DNA of 62,897 nt from an uncultured Clostridia bacterium. GTDB lineage: Bacteria > Bacillota > Clostridia > Oscillospirales > Acutalibacteraceae. The stretch's first letter is position 1; each line of letters starts with the position of its first letter. The stretch spans positions 1 through 62,897 of the forward strand of contig CANRIZ010000016.1 in NCBI GenBank assembly GCA_947630835.1, given 5' to 3'. Positions 101 to 29,302 of this stretch are shown here, one piece after another. The notes beneath the pieces were generated by a model, which saw nothing but the letters and a program-made list of their open reading frames with translations, searched no databases and had not been told where the DNA came from. Made by a program: the position numbers and the translations under genes.

Positions 101-129
101 TTGACAATACTTTAAATCGGTAGTAAAAT
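101..129 (+). promoter_or_regulatory. Sigma-70 promoter of the aro operon
   Basis: The -35 box TTGACA (101-106) and the -10 box TAAAAT (124-129) are separated by exactly 17 bp. The predicted start is near 136, so the RNA carries the leader peptide and terminator that follow before pheA. Bases 1-100 are AT-rich and I see no gene in them. Confidence 0.85.
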
Positions 130-158
130 GTTAAAAAGTTTTGAAAGGAGTGCTTATA

Positions 159-206
159 ATGTTTAAAAAGCGTTATTACTTTATCTTTAGTAACGTGATG
201 GAATAA
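159..206 (+). CDS. Aromatic amino-acid leader peptide (attenuator peptide)
   Basis: A 15-codon reading frame starts at ATG 159 behind the ribosome site AAAGGAG (144-150) and ends at TAA 204-206. The peptide is MFKKRYYFIFSNVME. Five of its 15 residues are Phe or Tyr, with a Tyr-Tyr-Phe run at codons 6-8. It lies between the operon promoter and an intrinsic terminator ahead of pheA, as in the classical pheA, trp and his leader peptides. I infer that ribosome stalling at the Tyr/Phe codons senses charged tRNA and sets read-through into the aro genes. The peptide itself probably has no other function. Confidence 0.8.
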   Translation: MFKKRYYFIFSNVME

Positions 207-242
207 ACATTATTTGCATTTTTCGGCTTTTAATGATTACTC

Positions 243-278
243 CACCACTTATTCGTTATGTTTAAGTGGTGTTTTTTT
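243..278 (+). terminator. Attenuator terminator of the aro operon
   Basis: Stem CACCACTTA (243-251) pairs perfectly with TAAGTGGTG (263-271), with an 11-nt loop, and is followed by seven T (272-278). Its whole left arm can instead pair with 191-201 (TAA, bulged C, GTG, A mismatch, TGG against CCACCACTTA), an antiterminator that forms only if the ribosome stalls upstream in the leader peptide. A third pairing, CGTTA 171-175 with TAACG 191-195, would release the terminator. Confidence 0.85.
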
Positions 279-299
279 ATGAAGGTAAGGGTGTTGATT

Positions 300-1388
300 A
301 TGACAGAGCTTGAAAAGGCGAGGCAGATTATTGACGAAACCGACAGGGAAATCGCAAAGCTTTTTGAAAAAAGAATGGACGCCGTTAAGCTCGTTGCGGA
401 GTATAAGGCAAAAAACGGTCTGCCCATATTCGATGAGGAAAGAGAAAAAAAGATAATATCAAAAAATGTGGCGTCGCTTAAAAACGACAGCCTTAAAGGT
501 TATTACGATACTTTTTTGCGTTCGTTTATCGGCGTTTCAAAAAAATATCAGGAAAGCCTTTTAAAGGGCTTGAAAATAGCCTTTTGCGGAACGGAGGGCG
601 CATTTGCCGAAATCGCCTCGAAGAAAATTTTTCCCTACGGCAGGACGGTTGCTTTCGGCGATTTTTCGGGCGCATACAACGCCGTGCTTGAGGGCGACTG
701 CGACTGCTGCGTACTGCCTATAGAAAACAGCTACGCGGGGGAAGTGGGGCAGGTAATCGACCTTATGTTCGAGGGCGACCTTTCCGTAAACGGCGTTTAC
801 GATATGCAGGTAAAGCAGAACCTTATCGGCATAAGGGGAGCGGGCATAAAGGACGTTAAAACCGTAATCAGCCACCCGCAGGCGCTTTCACAGTGCAATG
901 TGTATATTAACGAGCACGGATTTTTTAAAGAGCAGGCGGCAAATACGGCTTTTGCGGCAAAAAAGGTTGCTTCGCTCAACGAAAAATCGGTTGCCGCAAT
1001 CGCAAGCAAGGAGACGGCGGAGCTTTACGGGCTTGAGGTAATCGATCACGATATAAACGAGAGCGCGGTCAACACGACAAGGTTCGCGGTGTTCTCTCGC
1101 TCGTCTGCGCAGAACTCGCCCGACAACGAAAGGTTTATTCTCCTGTTTACGGTAAACGACGAGGTCGGAGCGCTTGCAAAGGCGGTAAATATAATCTGCG
1201 CTCACGGCTTTAATATGAGAATTTTGAGAAGCCGCCCCGTAAAGAACGTTCCGTGGCAGTACTATTTCTATGTAGAGGCGGACGGCGACAGAAATTCCGA
1301 GGAGGGACAGCGGATGATGAAGGAGCTTTCCGTCTGCTGTGAGAAGCTCAAAATTGCCGGTCACTATTCGGCGAAAAAAACTATCTGA
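300..1388 (+). CDS. pheA: Bifunctional chorismate mutase / prephenate dehydratase (P-protein)
   Basis: This cytoplasmic enzyme converts chorismate to prephenate and then to phenylpyruvate, the branch to phenylalanine. Residues about 1-85 are an AroQ-type chorismate mutase helical domain. Residues about 90-270 are the dehydratase domain, with the TTRF motif near residue 258. Residues about 275-345 are an ACT domain carrying RSRP in place of the usual ESRP, likely the Phe feedback site. I chose ATG 300 because the upstream in-frame starts at 258 and 279 lie in or directly on the attenuator terminator, and AAGGTAAGG precedes 300. It is first in the operon; aroB follows after 11 bp. Confidence 0.93.
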   Translation: MTELEKARQIIDETDREIAKLFEKRMDAVKLVAEYKAKNGLPIFDEEREKKIISKNVASLKNDSLKGYYDTFLRSFIGVSKKYQESLLKGLKIAFCGTEGAFAEIASKKIFPYGRTVAFGDFSGAYNAVLEGDCDCCVLPIENSYAGEVGQVIDLMFEGDLSVNGVYDMQVKQNLIGIRGAGIKDVKTVISHPQALSQCNVYINEHGFFKEQAANTAFAAKKVASLNEKSVAAIASKETAELYGLEVIDHDINESAVNTTRFAVFSRSSAQNSPDNERFILLFTVNDEVGALAKAVNIICAHGFNMRILRSRPVKNVPWQYYFYVEADGDRNSEEGQRMMKELSVCCEKLKIAGHYSAKKTI

Positions 1389-2425: not shown

Positions 2426-3667
2426 ATGGAATACGGTTGCATAGGCAAAAAACTGCCTCACTCCTTTTCAAAAACAATACACGAAAAAATAGGCTCTTAT
2501 TCGTATGAGTTAAAGGAATTAAGCGAGCAGGAGCTTGTTCCTTTTATGGAAAAGCATGAGTTTAAGGCAATAAACGTTACAATCCCGTATAAACAGGCGG
2601 TTATACCGTTTTTGTATGAAATAAGTCCAACCGCAAAGGCGATAGGCGCGGTAAATACCGTGGTAAACCGCGCGGGCAGGCTTTACGGCTACAATACGGA
2701 TTTTTACGGCTTAACTTCTCTTTTAAACAAAAACAATATCGCTCTTAAAAACAAAAAGGTTGCCATACTCGGTTCGGGCGGAACGTCAAAAACCGCCGCC
2801 GCCGTTGCAAAAAGTTTGGGTGCGGCGGAAATTTTAAGGGTTTCGAGAAGCGCAAAGGAAAATTCGGTTACTTATTCGGAGCTTTACGAAAAGCATGGCG
2901 ATACCGACGTTATCATAAACACAACTCCTGTGGGAATGTACCCCGATATTTTTGCAAGCCCCGTCAAGCTTTCGCGCTTTAAAAAGCTTTCGGGCGTTGC
3001 GGACGCGGTTTACAATCCGCTTTCGACCGAGCTCGTTTTGGAGGCGGAGCGTATGGGTATTCCGTCCTGGGGCGGGCTTTATATGCTTACGGCGCAGGCG
3101 ATAAAGGCTTATGAAATTTTTATGGATACAAAGGCCCGTGACGGCTTGCTTGACGATATATTTGCGTCCGTTCTGAGCTCAAAGAAAAACATAGTTTTAA
3201 CCGGTATGCCCGGCAGCGGAAAAACCACCGTAGGCAAAGCCGCGGCGGAGAAAACCGGACGTGATTTTATAGATACCGACGAGGAAATCAAAAAAGAGAC
3301 GGGTATGGAAATATCCGATTATTTTGAGCGCTTCGGCGAAGCGGCTTTCAGGGATAAGGAAACGCAGGTAATTAAAAAAATCAGCGCGCTTTCGGGGGTG
3401 GTTATCGCAACCGGCGGCGGAGCGGTGTTAAGAGAAGAAAACATGCTTGCGCTTAAAATGAACGGAACAATTTATTATATGGACAGACCCTTGGAACAGT
3501 TAATTCCCACCTCCGACAGACCGCTTGCTTCAACAAAAGAGGCAATAGTGAAAAGGTACAACGAAAGAATAGGCATATATCTTGCTGCGGCGGATAAAAA
3601 AATCAAGGTAAACGGCATATGCTCGTACGCCGTCGAACAGATAGAAAAGGAGCATTTTTCAAAATGA
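2426..3667 (+). CDS. aroE/aroK: Shikimate dehydrogenase - shikimate kinase fusion
   Basis: One 413-aa chain carries two shikimate steps. Residues about 1-250 are shikimate 5-dehydrogenase: the N-terminal PHSFSKTIH substrate region, catalytic Lys in VTIPYK, NTDFYG with the catalytic Asp, GSGGTSKTA for NADP, and NTTPVGMYP. Residues about 252-413 are shikimate kinase: Walker A GMPGSGKTT, FIDTD, FRDKE, ATGGGA and the DRPL lid arginine. The two domains are normally separate proteins, and the fusion would channel shikimate to shikimate-3-phosphate. The stop overlaps the aroQ start (ATGA), which implies translational coupling. Confidence 0.93.
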   Translation: MEYGCIGKKLPHSFSKTIHEKIGSYSYELKELSEQELVPFMEKHEFKAINVTIPYKQAVIPFLYEISPTAKAIGAVNTVVNRAGRLYGYNTDFYGLTSLLNKNNIALKNKKVAILGSGGTSKTAAAVAKSLGAAEILRVSRSAKENSVTYSELYEKHGDTDVIINTTPVGMYPDIFASPVKLSRFKKLSGVADAVYNPLSTELVLEAERMGIPSWGGLYMLTAQAIKAYEIFMDTKARDGLLDDIFASVLSSKKNIVLTGMPGSGKTTVGKAAAEKTGRDFIDTDEEIKKETGMEISDYFERFGEAAFRDKETQVIKKISALSGVVIATGGGAVLREENMLALKMNGTIYYMDRPLEQLIPTSDRPLASTKEAIVKRYNERIGIYLAAADKKIKVNGICSYAVEQIEKEHFSK

Positions 3668-4092
3668 AAATCTTGGTTATTAACGGCCCTAATCTCAATA
3701 TGCTCGGCGTAAGGGAACCGCAGATTTACGGCAGTAAAACTTATGACGATTTATGCGGTATGATAAAGTCATACTGCGGGGAAAAGGGGATTTCGGTTGA
3801 TTTTTACCAGTCAAATCACGAAGGGGCTCTTGTTGACAGCATACAGGGCGCTTACGGAAAATTTGACGGGATAGTAATCAACCCCGGCGCATATACGCAC
3901 ACCTCGGTGGCGTTGCTCGACGCAGTAAAGGCGGTGGGTATTCCGACGGTTGAGGTGCATATTTCGGACCCCGACGAAAGGGAAGAATTCAGAAAAACAA
4001 GCTACATACGCCAAGGCTGTGCGGGCACTTTTAAAGGGCTGGGCTTTGACGGCTACTTACGGGCGATAGATTTACTTACGGAGAAAAAGTAA
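3664..4092 (+). CDS. aroQ: Type II 3-dehydroquinate dehydratase
   Basis: This enzyme removes water from 3-dehydroquinate to give 3-dehydroshikimate and normally forms a dodecamer of about 145-aa subunits; this chain is 142 aa. It shows the type II motifs NGPNLNMLG, the flexible-loop arginine and tyrosine (REPQIYG), QSNHEG, NPGAYTHTS with the catalytic histidine region, and EVHISDPDERE. I chose ATG 3664 because it begins the conserved MKILVINGPN start and overlaps the aroE-aroK stop by four bases. An upstream in-frame start at 3619 would only add residues inside aroK. Confidence 0.94.
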   Translation: MKILVINGPNLNMLGVREPQIYGSKTYDDLCGMIKSYCGEKGISVDFYQSNHEGALVDSIQGAYGKFDGIVINPGAYTHTSVALLDAVKAVGIPTVEVHISDPDEREEFRKTSYIRQGCAGTFKGLGFDGYLRAIDLLTEKK

Positions 4093-4093
4093 A

Positions 4094-5305
4094 ATGAAAC
4101 TGAAAATCGAAAAATCCCTGCCCGAGGGAAAAATATATGCGCCCGCTTCAAAAAGCGTTGCTCACAGGGCTCTTATCTGCGCCGGACTTTGCGAGGGTGA
4201 GAGCGTTATTGAAAATATTTCTCTTTCGCAGGATATCGAAGCTACGCTTAACTGTCTTAAAGCGATAGGATGCGAGGTTGAAATTCGGGGCGGCGCGGCA
4301 AAAATAAGGGGAATAAAAAATTTTGACTTTATAGGAAAAGAGGAGCTTTTTTGTAACGAAAGCGGCAGTACTCTCAGGTTTTTTATCCCCGTATGTCTGC
4401 TTGCAAACGGCCCTGCGACATTAAAGGGCAGCGAAAAGCTGATTTCAAGACCGCTCGGAGTTTACGAGGAAATTTGCCGAAGGCAGGGCGTTGAAATGAC
4501 CGTCGGCGGAGATACGGTTGAATTAAACGGCAAGCTCAGGGCGGATACTTTCGAGGTAAAGGGCAACATAAGCAGTCAGTTTATCAGCGGACTTATGTTT
4601 GCGCTCCCACAGCTTGAGGGCGACAGCGTAATTAAAATTATACCGCCGTTCGAGAGTAAGCCTTACGTCCGTATGACCGCCGATATGTTAAATAAATTCG
4701 GCGTCAAGACCGAAATAAACGAAAATGAAATAAAAATCGCGGGTTCGCAGAAATACAAGCCCCGCAATTTGGCTGTCGAGGGAGACTGGTCAAACGCCGC
4801 CTTCCTGTTTGCGTTAAAGGAATATTCCGACAATTTGGAGGTTGCGGGAGTTGACGAAAACAGCAGGCAGGGCGACAAAATCTGTACGGATTACTTTAAA
4901 AAGCTCAAAAAAGGCTATTGTACGCTTGACGTTACCGACTGCCCCGACCTTGCGCCCGTGCTTTTTGCTTTCGCCGCGGTAAACCACGGCGCGGAATTTA
5001 CCGGCACGGACAGATTGAGGTTCAAGGAAAGCGACAGAATAACCTGTATGAAGCGGGAGCTTGAAAAATTCGGCGCAGAGCTTTCGAAGGGCGAAAACAA
5101 GGTCGCCGTAAGCGCGGAGGGCTTCCATAAACCGACGCAGACGATATTCGGCCACAACGACCACAGGATAGTAATGGCGACCGCCTTTTTGCTTATGCTC
5201 ACGGGCGGTGAGCTTGACGGCGCGGAGGCTGTAAGAAAAAGCTACCCCGATTTTTTTGAACAGATGATAAAATCGGGCGTGAAAATAGATTATTTGAAGG
5301 ATTAA
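4094..5305 (+). CDS. aroA: 3-phosphoshikimate 1-carboxyvinyltransferase (EPSP synthase)
   Basis: This enzyme transfers enolpyruvate from PEP to shikimate-3-phosphate, the sixth shikimate step. The 403-aa chain has the two-domain signature motifs: SKSVAHRALI near the N-terminus, ESGSTLRFF, GNISSQF, LRFKESDRI and GHNDHRIVMA. It starts one base after the aroQ stop. Chorismate synthase (aroC), the next enzyme, is not in the window and must be encoded elsewhere. Confidence 0.95.
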   Translation: MKLKIEKSLPEGKIYAPASKSVAHRALICAGLCEGESVIENISLSQDIEATLNCLKAIGCEVEIRGGAAKIRGIKNFDFIGKEELFCNESGSTLRFFIPVCLLANGPATLKGSEKLISRPLGVYEEICRRQGVEMTVGGDTVELNGKLRADTFEVKGNISSQFISGLMFALPQLEGDSVIKIIPPFESKPYVRMTADMLNKFGVKTEINENEIKIAGSQKYKPRNLAVEGDWSNAAFLFALKEYSDNLEVAGVDENSRQGDKICTDYFKKLKKGYCTLDVTDCPDLAPVLFAFAAVNHGAEFTGTDRLRFKESDRITCMKRELEKFGAELSKGENKVAVSAEGFHKPTQTIFGHNDHRIVMATAFLLMLTGGELDGAEAVRKSYPDFFEQMIKSGVKIDYLKD

Positions 5306-5325: not shown

Positions 5326-6354
5326 ATGAATATGATTTTTGAAAGGAAGCTTGCCATTCCGCAGGAGGTAAAGCAGATGTACCCGCTTACCGCCGCTTCA
5401 AAGCAGGCGATAGACGGCAGAAGGGCGGAGCTTAAAAAGATTTTCAGCGGCGAGAGCGATAAGTTTTTGCTTATCATAGGTCCTTGCTCCGCCGACCGCG
5501 ACGACAGCGTGCTCGATTACATAAGCAGGTTAAGGGAGGTTCAGGAAAAAGTAAAGGACAAGCTTTTTATTGTCCCCAGAATTTATACCAACAAGCCCAG
5601 AACCACCGGCGACGGCTACAAGGGTATGCTTCACCAGCCCGATCCCAATCAAAAGCCGGATATGTTCAAGGGCATAGTCGCAATAAGAGAGCTTCATATG
5701 AAGGCGGTGGAGGAAACGGGCTTTGCCTGCGCCGACGAGATGCTTTATCCCGAAAATTACAGGTATCTTGACGACGTTTTGGGCTATGTTGCAATAGGCG
5801 CAAGAAGCGTTGAAAACCAACAGCACAGGCTTACCTCAAGCGGCATAGAAGTGCCGGTAGGTATGAAAAACCCCACAAGCGGCGACATTTCGGTTATGAT
5901 GAATTCCATAACGGCCGCCCAGCATAAGCACACCTTTATTTACAGGGGATGGGAGGTTCATTCCGAGGGCAACCCTTACGCTCACGCAATTTTAAGGGGC
6001 TACGTCAGCAAAAGCGGAAGAGCCATACCCAATTACCACTATGAGGATATACGCCGCCTTTACGAGGTCTATGAGGAAAGCGGACTTCAAAACCCGGCCG
6101 TCATAATAGACGCAAACCATTCAAATTCGGGCAAGGATCCGATTCAGCAGATAAGAATTTCAAAGGAAATAATCGTAAGCAAGCGTTACAGCGGCGATAT
6201 AGACAAGCTTGTTAAAGGAATTATGATAGAAAGCTATATCGAGGACGGCAGTCAAAAGATAGGCGGCGGCGTTTACGGAAAATCAATAACCGACGCCTGC
6301 CTCGGTTGGGAAAAGTCCGAAAAACTCATACTGGACTTAGCCGATATGCTTTAA
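5326..6354 (+). CDS. aroF: DAHP synthase, class I (AroFGH type)
   Basis: This enzyme condenses PEP and erythrose-4-phosphate, the entry step of the pathway. The 342-aa length matches the short microbial type I alpha enzymes. Motifs include IGPCSADRDD, PRIYTNKPRT, IGARSVENQ, GMKNPTSGD and IDANHSNSGK with metal ligands. I placed the start at ATG 5326 because GGAGG at 5313-5317 is at the correct distance; the in-frame TTG at 5311 overlaps that ribosome site. It is the last gene of the operon although it encodes the first step, so attenuation of the operon would control pathway entry. Confidence 0.94.
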   Translation: MNMIFERKLAIPQEVKQMYPLTAASKQAIDGRRAELKKIFSGESDKFLLIIGPCSADRDDSVLDYISRLREVQEKVKDKLFIVPRIYTNKPRTTGDGYKGMLHQPDPNQKPDMFKGIVAIRELHMKAVEETGFACADEMLYPENYRYLDDVLGYVAIGARSVENQQHRLTSSGIEVPVGMKNPTSGDISVMMNSITAAQHKHTFIYRGWEVHSEGNPYAHAILRGYVSKSGRAIPNYHYEDIRRLYEVYEESGLQNPAVIIDANHSNSGKDPIQQIRISKEIIVSKRYSGDIDKLVKGIMIESYIEDGSQKIGGGVYGKSITDACLGWEKSEKLILDLADML

Positions 6355-27718: not shown

Positions 27719-29302
27719 TTATTTTCCGCTTTCACCATAATTCGACAAAACACGGGCGGACGGGTCGTTTACGTTGCAGCCCTCCCATTCCTTGTTGGGC
27801 ATCCAGAAATCAACAACCATTTCGGCCTGACCGGGATAGTATTTTTCAAAAATTTCCCTGTAAAGCAGCGATTCTTTGGTAAACGGCTTTGCGAAGGTGT
27901 ATTTGTCGCACATGGCTTTAAACTTTTCCTCATCATTATAGCACTGTTCGGCATACAATTTCAAGTCATCTACCATAGAATGTCCGACTGCGTCCGAAAA
28001 AGCCGCTTTTTCGCGGTACAGAATCTCGTAGGGCAGGTAATCGCCCTCGAATGCGTGGCGCAGGAGGTATTTTCCCTTGTTGTATTTATTTAATTTCATC
28101 TCGGGGTCAACCGACATAACGTATTTGACAAAGTCCAAATCCCCGAAAGGTACTCTCGCCTCAAGAGAGTTTACGGAAATACAGCGGTCTGCCCGCAGTA
28201 CGTCGTACATATGCAGCTCACGGACTCTCTTTTGCGCTTCCTTTTGGAAGGCTTCCGCGCTTGGGGCAAAGTCGGTGTATTTATATCCGAAAAGCTCATC
28301 CGATATTTCTCCGGTAAGCAAAACCCGTATATCCGTATTTTCGTGAATGTATTTGCATACGAGATACATACCCATACTCGCCCTTATTGTCGTTATATCG
28401 TAAGTGCCGAGCAGGGCGATAACGGTTTCAAGGTTGTTTATAACATCGTCCCTTGTGATTATGACCTCGGTATGGTCGCTTCCTATGTAATCGGCAACCT
28501 GCTTTGCGTATTTAAGGTCGATAGCGTCCTCGCTCATACCTATCGCAAAGGTCTTTATCGGCTCTTTGCTGTTTCTTTGCGCTATGGCGCATACAAGCGA
28601 AGAATCAAGCCCTCCCGAAAGCAGATAGCCTATCTTTGCGTCGGATATCATTCGTTTTTCAATACCCGAAACAAGCTTGTCATGAATGTTTTTGCATACG
28701 GTTTCCAAGCTGTCGCCGCAAACGGCGTCAACGGCGGCTATGTCGCAGTAGCGCACAAATTCCCCGTCCTTATAATAGCAGCCCGGAGGGAAGGGCATAA
28801 CCTTTTTTACAAGCCCTACAAGGTTTTTTGCCTCGCTTGCAAAAACTGCGCTTCCCGCCTCGTCGTAACCGTAATAAAGCGGTCTTATGCCTATGGGATC
28901 TCTTGCGGCTATGTATTTTTGCTCTTTGCCGTCGTAGATAATCATGGCAAATTCGGCGTCAAGGATTTTAAACATATCCGTTCCCAATTCTTTGTAAAGG
29001 GGCAAAATAATTTCGCAGTCGCTGTCGCTTACGAAGCTGTATCCCTTTTCGATAAGCTCCCGCTTTAATTTGTGAAAGCCGTAAATTTCGCCGTTGCAGA
29101 CTACGTAGCTGCCTTCAAACTCAAAGGGCTGCATACCCTCGTCGGTAAGCCCCATAATCGCCAGCCTGTGGAAGCCCAACAGACCTTTTCCGGTATCTAT
29201 GATTCTGCTGTCGTCGGGGCCTCTGGAAACGGTTTTGTCAAAGCCTTTTTTAAACAAGTCAAAGGCGGCGCCGCTGCTGCAATAGCCCATGATTGAACAC
29301 AT
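27719..29302 (-). CDS. asnB: Glutamine-hydrolysing asparagine synthetase
   Basis: This enzyme converts aspartate to asparagine with glutamine and ATP. The 527-aa chain begins with the class II amidotransferase (Cys2 of [10 protein letters not shown]) and contains the synthetase ATP site [10 protein letters not shown]. The length fits the short AsnB type. I chose the start at 29302 because Cys must follow the initiator Met and AAGGAGG is directly upstream. The region before it is the T-box leader, so in-frame codons upstream are not translated. It is first in the run asnB-purC-purF-pyrG-carA-carB. Confidence 0.95.

Follow-up and report, generated by a model that had tools for sequence, protein, structure and literature searches.

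A putative leader-peptide attenuator with Tyr and Phe codons upstream of pheA and a shikimate operon in an uncultured Clostridia bacterium

The shikimate operon and its leader region

The window, by which we mean the whole 62,897-nucleotide stretch analysed here, runs from base 1 of contig C16 in a genome of 2.10 Mb, 39 contigs and 99% completeness. Near its start, six aromatic-pathway genes follow a leader region on the forward strand with only small gaps between them: pheA, which encodes a chorismate mutase-prephenate dehydratase with CM_2 and PDT domains (300-1388), aroB (1400-2413; DHQ_synthase), an aroEK fusion (2426-3667; Shikimate_dh_N and SKI), aroQ, a type II dehydroquinase (3664-4092), aroA, an EPSP synthase (4094-5305; both assigned by domain search), and aroF, a DAHP synthase (5326-6354; DAHP_synth_1). 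An attenuator in the leader would govern what appears, from gene order, to be an operon holding most of the shikimate pathway. The PheA protein is 100% identical to that of locus L002, also from an uncultured Clostridia bacterium.

Most elements of the leader (101-278, forward strand) can be read directly from the sequence. The promoter comprises TTGACA (101-106), a 17-nt spacer and TAAAAT (124-129), matching 11 of 12 consensus positions; it was the best of three candidates in a consensus scan, although shuffled sequences yield 2.0 promoters on average, so the scan alone adds little. A Shine-Dalgarno sequence, AAAGGAG (144-150), precedes the leader open reading frame, and AAAGG or a similar motif is found before the leaders of relatives. 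The reading frame itself (159-206) encodes MFKKRYYFIFSNVME in 15 codons, from an ATG at 159-161 to a TAA stop at 204-206, and its codon positions are kept in 30 leaders; Tyr6, Tyr7, Phe8 and perhaps Phe10 are the candidate sensor codons. Downstream lies an intrinsic terminator (243-278) with a 9-bp stem formed by CACCACTTA (243-251) and TAAGTGGTG (263-271), a loop of 11 nt and a run of seven T (272-278); it also covaries in relatives. Our terminator scan of the window did not list this structure, probably because the scan accepts loops of 3-8 nt only. A first-pass annotation of the DNA had listed the promoter, the ribosome site, a 15-residue Phe/Tyr leader and the terminator, and the coordinates it gave are off by no more than one or two bases.

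The left arm of the antiterminator, GUGAUGGA (195-202), is read in frame as Val-Met-Glu, while its right arm (241-251), identified by the alignment of relatives, is common to the left arm of the terminator. Pairing of GTGATGGA (195-202) with TCCACCAC (241-248) gives seven pairs and one internal A.C mismatch (198.245), and the helix is extended by three further pairs, TAA (191-193) with TTA (249-251), across a bulged C194. The nine pairs previously proposed between 191-201 and 242-251 are this same helix, less A202-U241. A protector hairpin (170-196), suggested by the predicted fold, would pair GCGUUAUUA (170-178) with UAGUAACGU (188-196); the fold lengthens the stem at 171-175/191-195 that the earlier reading had described, but that stem is not conserved across the 30 leaders. 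The region 101-300 folds with z = -4.26, and 0 of 200 shuffles reached as low an energy. An antiterminator match as good as that of the window occurred in 11 of 100 shuffles of its leader, which is near chance, so the case for the antiterminator rests on its relatives.

Conservation and covariation among pheA relatives

Our set of relatives comprised 81 pheA loci, namely 80 homologue loci and the window. In 33 of the 81, a reading frame that follows a ribosome site and has five or more F/Y/W among eight residues lies no more than 300 nt upstream, and 27 remain when at least six are required; the corresponding means per 81 loci over 20 rounds of dinucleotide shuffles were 0.35 and 0. Leader, antiterminator and terminator stand together in one register, an arrangement that we term class I, at 30 of the 81 loci (the window and 29 others). 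Taken leader by leader, the antiterminator match was equalled by a mean of 6.8 of 100 shuffles, and 26 of the 30 leaders reach seven of eight Watson-Crick pairs.

The left arm of the antiterminator is GCGATGGA in most of the 30 leaders and GTGATGGA in the window and L002, with GCGATTGA in L003-L008, GCGGCGGA in L019 and L024, and GCGATGGG in L036. The right-arm partners match these left arms, being TCCACCGC (or ACCACCGC, CCCACCGC, GCCACCGC), TCCACCAC or TCAACCGC. Over the 30 leaders, 85.8% of antiterminator cells are paired (81.1% in shuffles, none of 500 reaching the observed level; 26-55% in slid versions) and 82.9% of terminator cells (0 of 500 shuffles), percentages that are partly built in by a recognition pattern demanding both arms. 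The positions that change were left free independently by that pattern, and covariation is thus not built in. None of 500 shuffles reached the observed covariation score of the antiterminator, in which compensatory changes convert C-G to U-A in two rows and G-C to U-A in six; the alignment pairs concerned, 50:126 and 54:122, carry two-sided changes in those two and six rows and are unpaired in no row. The terminator changes at the same columns (126:159 and 122:163), so that its arm alters along with the antiterminator and three positions change together.

Stricter measures temper this picture. Pairs changed on both sides did not exceed shuffles in either the antiterminator (71 of 500) or the terminator (92 of 500), nor did the number of further pair types (352 and 53 of 500, respectively). 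Because rows of one clade share the compensatory changes by descent, these changes count as about two independent events. The first-pass annotation had proposed aligning such leaders; across the 30, antiterminator and terminator prove to be conserved and covarying, and the Tyr/Phe run is conserved in both position and composition.

Codon placement, modelled folding and competing explanations

Codon positions in the 30 class I leaders were counted back from the first codon of the antiterminator arm. Phe, Tyr or Trp occupies positions -7, -6, -5 and -4 in 27, 29, 30 and 27 leaders, respectively (76 Tyr, 36 Phe and one Trp in total), and positions -2 and -1 in none. Both Tyr and Phe codons are present in every one of the 30 leaders, which fits the earlier suggestion of joint sensing of Phe and Tyr.

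Folding was modelled on transcripts ending 8 nt past the right arm, in which a ribosome mask covered the bases from -16 to +12 about the A-site codon. For stalls from -8 to -4, the mean antiterminator probability was 0.89, 0.85, 0.80, 0.77 and 0.68, falling to 0.26 at -3, 0.04 at -2 and 0 beyond. In the window, the same probability was 0.99 at Tyr6 and at Tyr7, 0.80 at Phe8, 0.20 at Ile9 and 0 at Phe10, as compared with 0.18 without a ribosome and 0 with a ribosome at the stop; this stall-by-stall folding points to two Tyr codons and one Phe codon as the probable sensors in the window. The trend was unchanged when the footprint was set to 9 or 15 nt in place of 12, with the boundary displaced by about one codon. 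The sensor codons are therefore predicted to sit where stalling would free the antiterminator, a prediction that holds on truncated transcripts and not at full-length equilibrium. Codon -3 (186-188 in the window) is Phe in 29 of the 30 leaders, always written TTT and never TTC or replaced by Tyr, although a stall modelled there already blocks the arm.

Equilibrium folding of whole leaders was discarded as a means of separating the two states, as the terminator is favoured nearly everywhere: with ribosome masks, the antiterminator ranked above the terminator in at most 3 of 30 leaders, and truncated transcripts were used instead. The model consequently needs co-transcriptional kinetics, whereby the antiterminator would have to form before the right arm of the terminator exists, as is commonly assumed for attenuators. 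With the ribosome placed at the stop, the antiterminator remains favoured in 14 of the 30 leaders, in all of which the stop lies 8-13 codons past the start of the arm; termination in these leaders would have to depend on the ribosome crossing the arm at the right time.

Without a ribosome, the antiterminator arm is mostly sequestered upstream in 8 of the 30 leaders, with partners that differ among them. Mean upstream sequestration was 0.31, as opposed to 0.12 in codon shuffles, and the window, at 0.33, is not among the eight. A protector in one register was not found across the 30 class I leaders; functional analogues of the window's hairpin occur in some relatives, e.g. CAAUUGC with GCGAUUG in L003 and L006.

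The antiterminator helix carries a conserved imperfection. An A stands opposite a C inside it in 28 of 30 leaders, a C opposite an A one position on in the other two, and a perfect helix in none, though the search pattern permitted one. Closing the mismatch in silico raised the mean antiterminator probability on truncated transcripts without a ribosome from 0.55 to 0.93, and that of the window from 0.18 to 1.00, while at full length the number of leaders preferring the terminator dropped from 27 to 20 of 30. It is plausible, on the basis of these folds, that the mismatch weakens the arm and thereby holds basal readthrough low.

We consider the element to be, very probably, a ribosome-mediated transcription attenuator that responds to how far tRNA-Tyr and tRNA-Phe are charged. 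Its parts, their conservation and covariation, and the placement of its codons are seen in the sequence and its comparison; from them we infer coupling, stalling, termination, kinetics and signals along the following lines. A ribosome would start on the leader just behind RNA polymerase. With Tyr-tRNA and Phe-tRNA plentiful, it would reach the stop at 204-206 and cover GUGAUGGA, leaving the left arm at 243-251 free to form the terminator, and transcription would end near 272-278. Should either tRNA run short, the ribosome would stall at Tyr6, Tyr7 or Phe8 and open the protector hairpin, whereby GUGAUGGA would stay free, capture UCCACCAC once it is made, and prevent the terminator from forming, so that the operon would be transcribed.

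The leader could instead be an arrest peptide, as is TnaC, which senses Trp, such that the nascent chain itself would sense free Phe or Tyr and the conserved F-x-x-A-M-D end would be the arrest motif. This reading, which we judge very unlikely, would explain the strong conservation of the C-terminal part of the leader and the TTT at codon -3 in 29 of 30 leaders, but the residues concerned change while pairing is kept: Ala becomes Val (window and L002), Met becomes Ile (L003-L008) and Met becomes Ala, with pairing compensated or a single mismatch merely moved. That residues change while pairing stays indicates that it is the RNA, and not the C-terminus of the peptide, that is held, and the arrest-peptide reading was set aside on this ground. 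Moreover, the Ala codon in the leader arm is GCG in 28 of 28 cases, a constraint on nucleotides and not on the amino acid, and leader length varies from 15 to 30 residues.

Slightly less probable again is a switch in which a protein or small molecule picks the hairpin (TRAP-like, riboswitch-like or T-box) and the reading frame is incidental. Hairpin choice of the protein, riboswitch or T-box type is usual in Bacillota, and in a T-box the uncharged tRNA binds the RNA directly, with no reading frame and no ribosome. A covariance-model search of the window's genome returned 13 T-box (RF00230) matches, seven above the family cut-off and one of these seven before a tyrosyl-tRNA synthetase gene, but none at the leader locus; the earlier remark that a leader peptide stands here where T-boxes are usual is borne out. 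No Rfam family, Phe_leader included, attained its gathering score for the window or eight relatives, and three hits over 90-310 fell far below theirs. A reading frame with its start, ribosome site and Tyr/Phe codons is, furthermore, kept in 30 loci. In this genome, tRNA charging seems to be sensed by a T-box at the tyrosyl-tRNA synthetase gene and by leader peptides at the biosynthetic operons. Leaderless pheA loci gave two T-box matches in 20 loci and none in 16. A T-box as general replacement of the leader was rejected, the match at L012 being on the other strand and that at L021 far upstream, neither directly before pheA.

Least probable is a constitutive terminator or fixed damper preceded by a by-product reading frame, for although TTT and TAT are frequent by chance in AT-rich DNA and the antiterminator of the window alone is not significant (11 of 100 shuffles), such frames occur in 33 of 81 loci against 0.35 in shuffles, a promoter lies directly before the leader, and changes in the shared arm are matched in both of its partners.

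Distribution, a second leader and related systems

A PheA match was found in 24 of the 26 genomes of the window's genus; the protein is of the window's type in seven and of a different type in 17. Class I leaders precede pheA in six of the seven window-type genomes (the window included; L150 is without one) and, within the loci retrieved, in none of the 17 other-type genomes. Likewise, no class I leader was found within 450 nt upstream of pheA at 40 more distant loci of the family and order (32 with the window's PheA type, 8 with the other), though most of those 32 keep the gene set of the window's operon. Outside the genus, many of the 30 class I leaders come from records labelled Lachnospiraceae or Oscillospiraceae.

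A covariance model (R1) matched in at least 6 of 394 genomes of the order, a lower bound and not a distribution, as the search scored eight candidates per genome. Five of these matches are class I leaders before pheA: those of the window's own genome and of G265, G178, G308 and G156, of which the last three lie outside the genus. G178 and G308 correspond to L051 and L036 of the class I set, and G156 is an addition to it. The sixth, in G264, was rejected as a partial match that lacks the core and lies beside a gene that is not pheA. A strict DNA pattern gave hits in 2 of 394 order genomes, both resembling unrelated coding sequence and left out of the leader count, and in 3 of 391 genomes of the class, all outside the order: before pheA in G762, and before another gene in G650 and G565. 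On a PheA tree of 116 rows, in which some rows scored as lacking the leader may be misses, class I requires 13 changes, at least five of them forced by well-supported branches, as against a shuffled mean of 28.1. This suggests that class I became scattered over the PheA tree by loss, gain or transfer.

The two leaders in G650 and G565, which belong to another family, precede a gene resembling phenylacetate-CoA ligase, whose downstream neighbour encodes a small protein with paired ACT domains (L141/L168 and L142/L169). The G650 gene scores 493.7 bits against TIGR02155, below the cut-off of 646.3, and its neighbour matches ACT_8; the G565 gene resembles that of G650 by eye. Provided that the leader responds to Phe and Tyr, the ligase-like gene is probably used there to make both from arylacetates.

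The window's genome holds tyrA on contig C4, within aroF2-tyrA-aroA2-aroC (locus L173, reverse complement from 3013; Pfam DAHP_synth_1, PDH_N/PDH_C, EPSP_synthase and Chorismate_synt), and this operon is preceded by a leader, MSKRIITAGYYYYRFIVCSVR, and a terminator. An aroF2 gene is present in 18 of the 26 genus genomes (L173 and L174-L191), and a Tyr/Phe leader precedes it in all 18, being located further upstream in L190. When the 18 leaders are aligned (alignment A2), the cells paired amount to 86.1% for the protector, 97.2% for the antiterminator and 100% for the terminator, with 11, 4 and 11 cells changed on both sides. The pairing and covariation scores of each helix were reached by 0 of 500 shuffles; the counts of pairs changed on both sides were equalled in 417, 330 and 9 of 500, respectively, and thus mostly show no excess. 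One slid control of the protector was slightly higher in covariation score, but had 50% pairing. Over their aromatic run, the truncated folds of the two leaders with four consecutive Tyr codons gave average antiterminator probabilities of 0.50 and 0.24. When no ribosome was present the values were 0.46 and 0.32, and in that state the antiterminator was also favoured in many of the remaining 16 leaders. With so little dependence on stalling, the folding case for the aroF2-tyrA leaders is weaker than the covariation.

The codon content of these leaders follows the content of the operon. In 16 of the 18 loci, aroF2-tyrA-aroA2-aroC-pheA lie on one strand with a pheA of the other type, and all 16 leaders contain 5-10 Phe and 2-5 Tyr. 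The remaining two, from the window's genome and its sister G265, lack pheA in the operon and have one Phe and four Tyr in a row (2 of 2), a striking correlation and not a statistic, as it reflects one evolutionary event in two sister genomes. Their run reads YYYYRF in leaders of 21 residues, as against mostly YFYFYF in leaders of 22-34 residues. Both genomes carry pheA on another contig, in the window's operon, and no PheA match was found in the 10 kb around the aroF2 of the window's genome.

We propose, with about even confidence, a reading that joins these observations. Aromatic synthesis in gut Clostridia would be run by separately built leader-peptide attenuators, at least two of them covarying and perhaps four in all, and selection would adjust the proportions of Phe and Tyr codons in each to fit the enzymes of its operon; the ligase-like gene would serve the synthesis of Phe and Tyr from arylacetates, and the A.C/C.A mismatch would act as a set point. 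Under this proposal, pheA would have left the aroF-tyrA operon in the window's lineage, whereupon the alternating Tyr-Phe leader would have become Tyr-Tyr-Tyr-Tyr.

Enteric bacteria supply the textbook case of leader-peptide attenuation; for the aromatic pathway of Bacillota, discussion usually centres on T-boxes and TRAP. The E. coli pheL-pheA attenuator, represented in Rfam as Phe_leader, resembles the element described here in having codons for the product in a leader, a terminator and an overlapping antiterminator before a chorismate mutase-prephenate dehydratase gene. As generally described, pheL is rich in Phe and has no Tyr, whereas the present leader mixes the two. Its reading frame also contains the antiterminator arm, most of the shikimate pathway falls within the controlled unit, and Rfam gives no match. 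The uORFC-13-1 motif upstream of aroF is described for 24 sequences from Acholeplasma and unassigned environmental DNA only and with at least one Phe codon (PMC8632094). It likewise places a reading frame with one or more Phe codons beside an intrinsic terminator before a shikimate gene, but by its description it concerns another gene in another lineage (PMC8632094). Leader peptides have also been predicted in Bacillota for his operons and hisS/hisZ, Eubacteriales included, where they serve histidine and not aromatic amino acids (PMC9413887, PMC2965389), and a Leu-rich attenuator peptide with genetic support is described for the S. aureus ilv-leu operon, where the pathway is branched-chain and the architecture different (PMC5794164). 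In the Bacillus cereus group, tyrosine synthesis is under T-box control, which similarly couples aromatic synthesis to tRNA charging and termination (PMC2494555). The mainly openly accessible literature, covered mostly at the level of titles and abstracts, yielded no description of a leader peptide before pheA or tyrA in Clostridia. We accordingly rate the Phe/Tyr variant before pheA in Clostridia as new within a mechanism class known from the amino-acid attenuators of E. coli.

Here a genome with 13 T-box matches has leader peptides before both aromatic operons examined, and their codon content differs. Such leader families offer a natural test of tuning among codon identity, arm strength and operon content, and leader type could predict the amino acid that a gene serves, e.g. 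for arylacetate ligases in gut bacteria.

Some further features were noted along the way. The genus has two pheA arrangements, in which the gene either heads its own shikimate operon or stands last in aroF-tyrA-aroA-aroC-pheA, with about 1 kb between tyrA and aroA in the latter; two PheA types alternating among species of one genus point to replacement or transfer. The T-box before the tyrosyl-tRNA synthetase gene of the window's genome is at L084 (G000:C12). The only T-box match on the window's own contig (29339-29563, reverse strand; 72.4 bits, below the gathering score of 93) is directly upstream of an asparagine synthase gene (27719-29302, reverse strand). Two further matches about 2.4 kb apart (L088, G000:C8:77681-77932, and 80309-80553) lie close to a gene for an AMP-binding, acyl-CoA ligase-like protein and to what, by eye, is a regulator gene of the XRE type.

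Two other leader types were grouped by eye. Class II (L022, L043, L067 and L071, perhaps also L030, L032 and L052) has FVRFFAGYYYY-like peptides and a very similar terminator, CGGTTCTGTT..GGACAG.ACCG. Class III (L021, L060, L076, L080, L113, L116 and L117) precedes aroF or pheA, with FYYFYF..CPS in most; upstream regions of aroF-first loci were examined for L021, L060, L076 and L080, leaving out L100, L101, L110 and L111. A class III arm such as CTGCCCGT could, by eye, pair with ACGGACAG next to the terminator.
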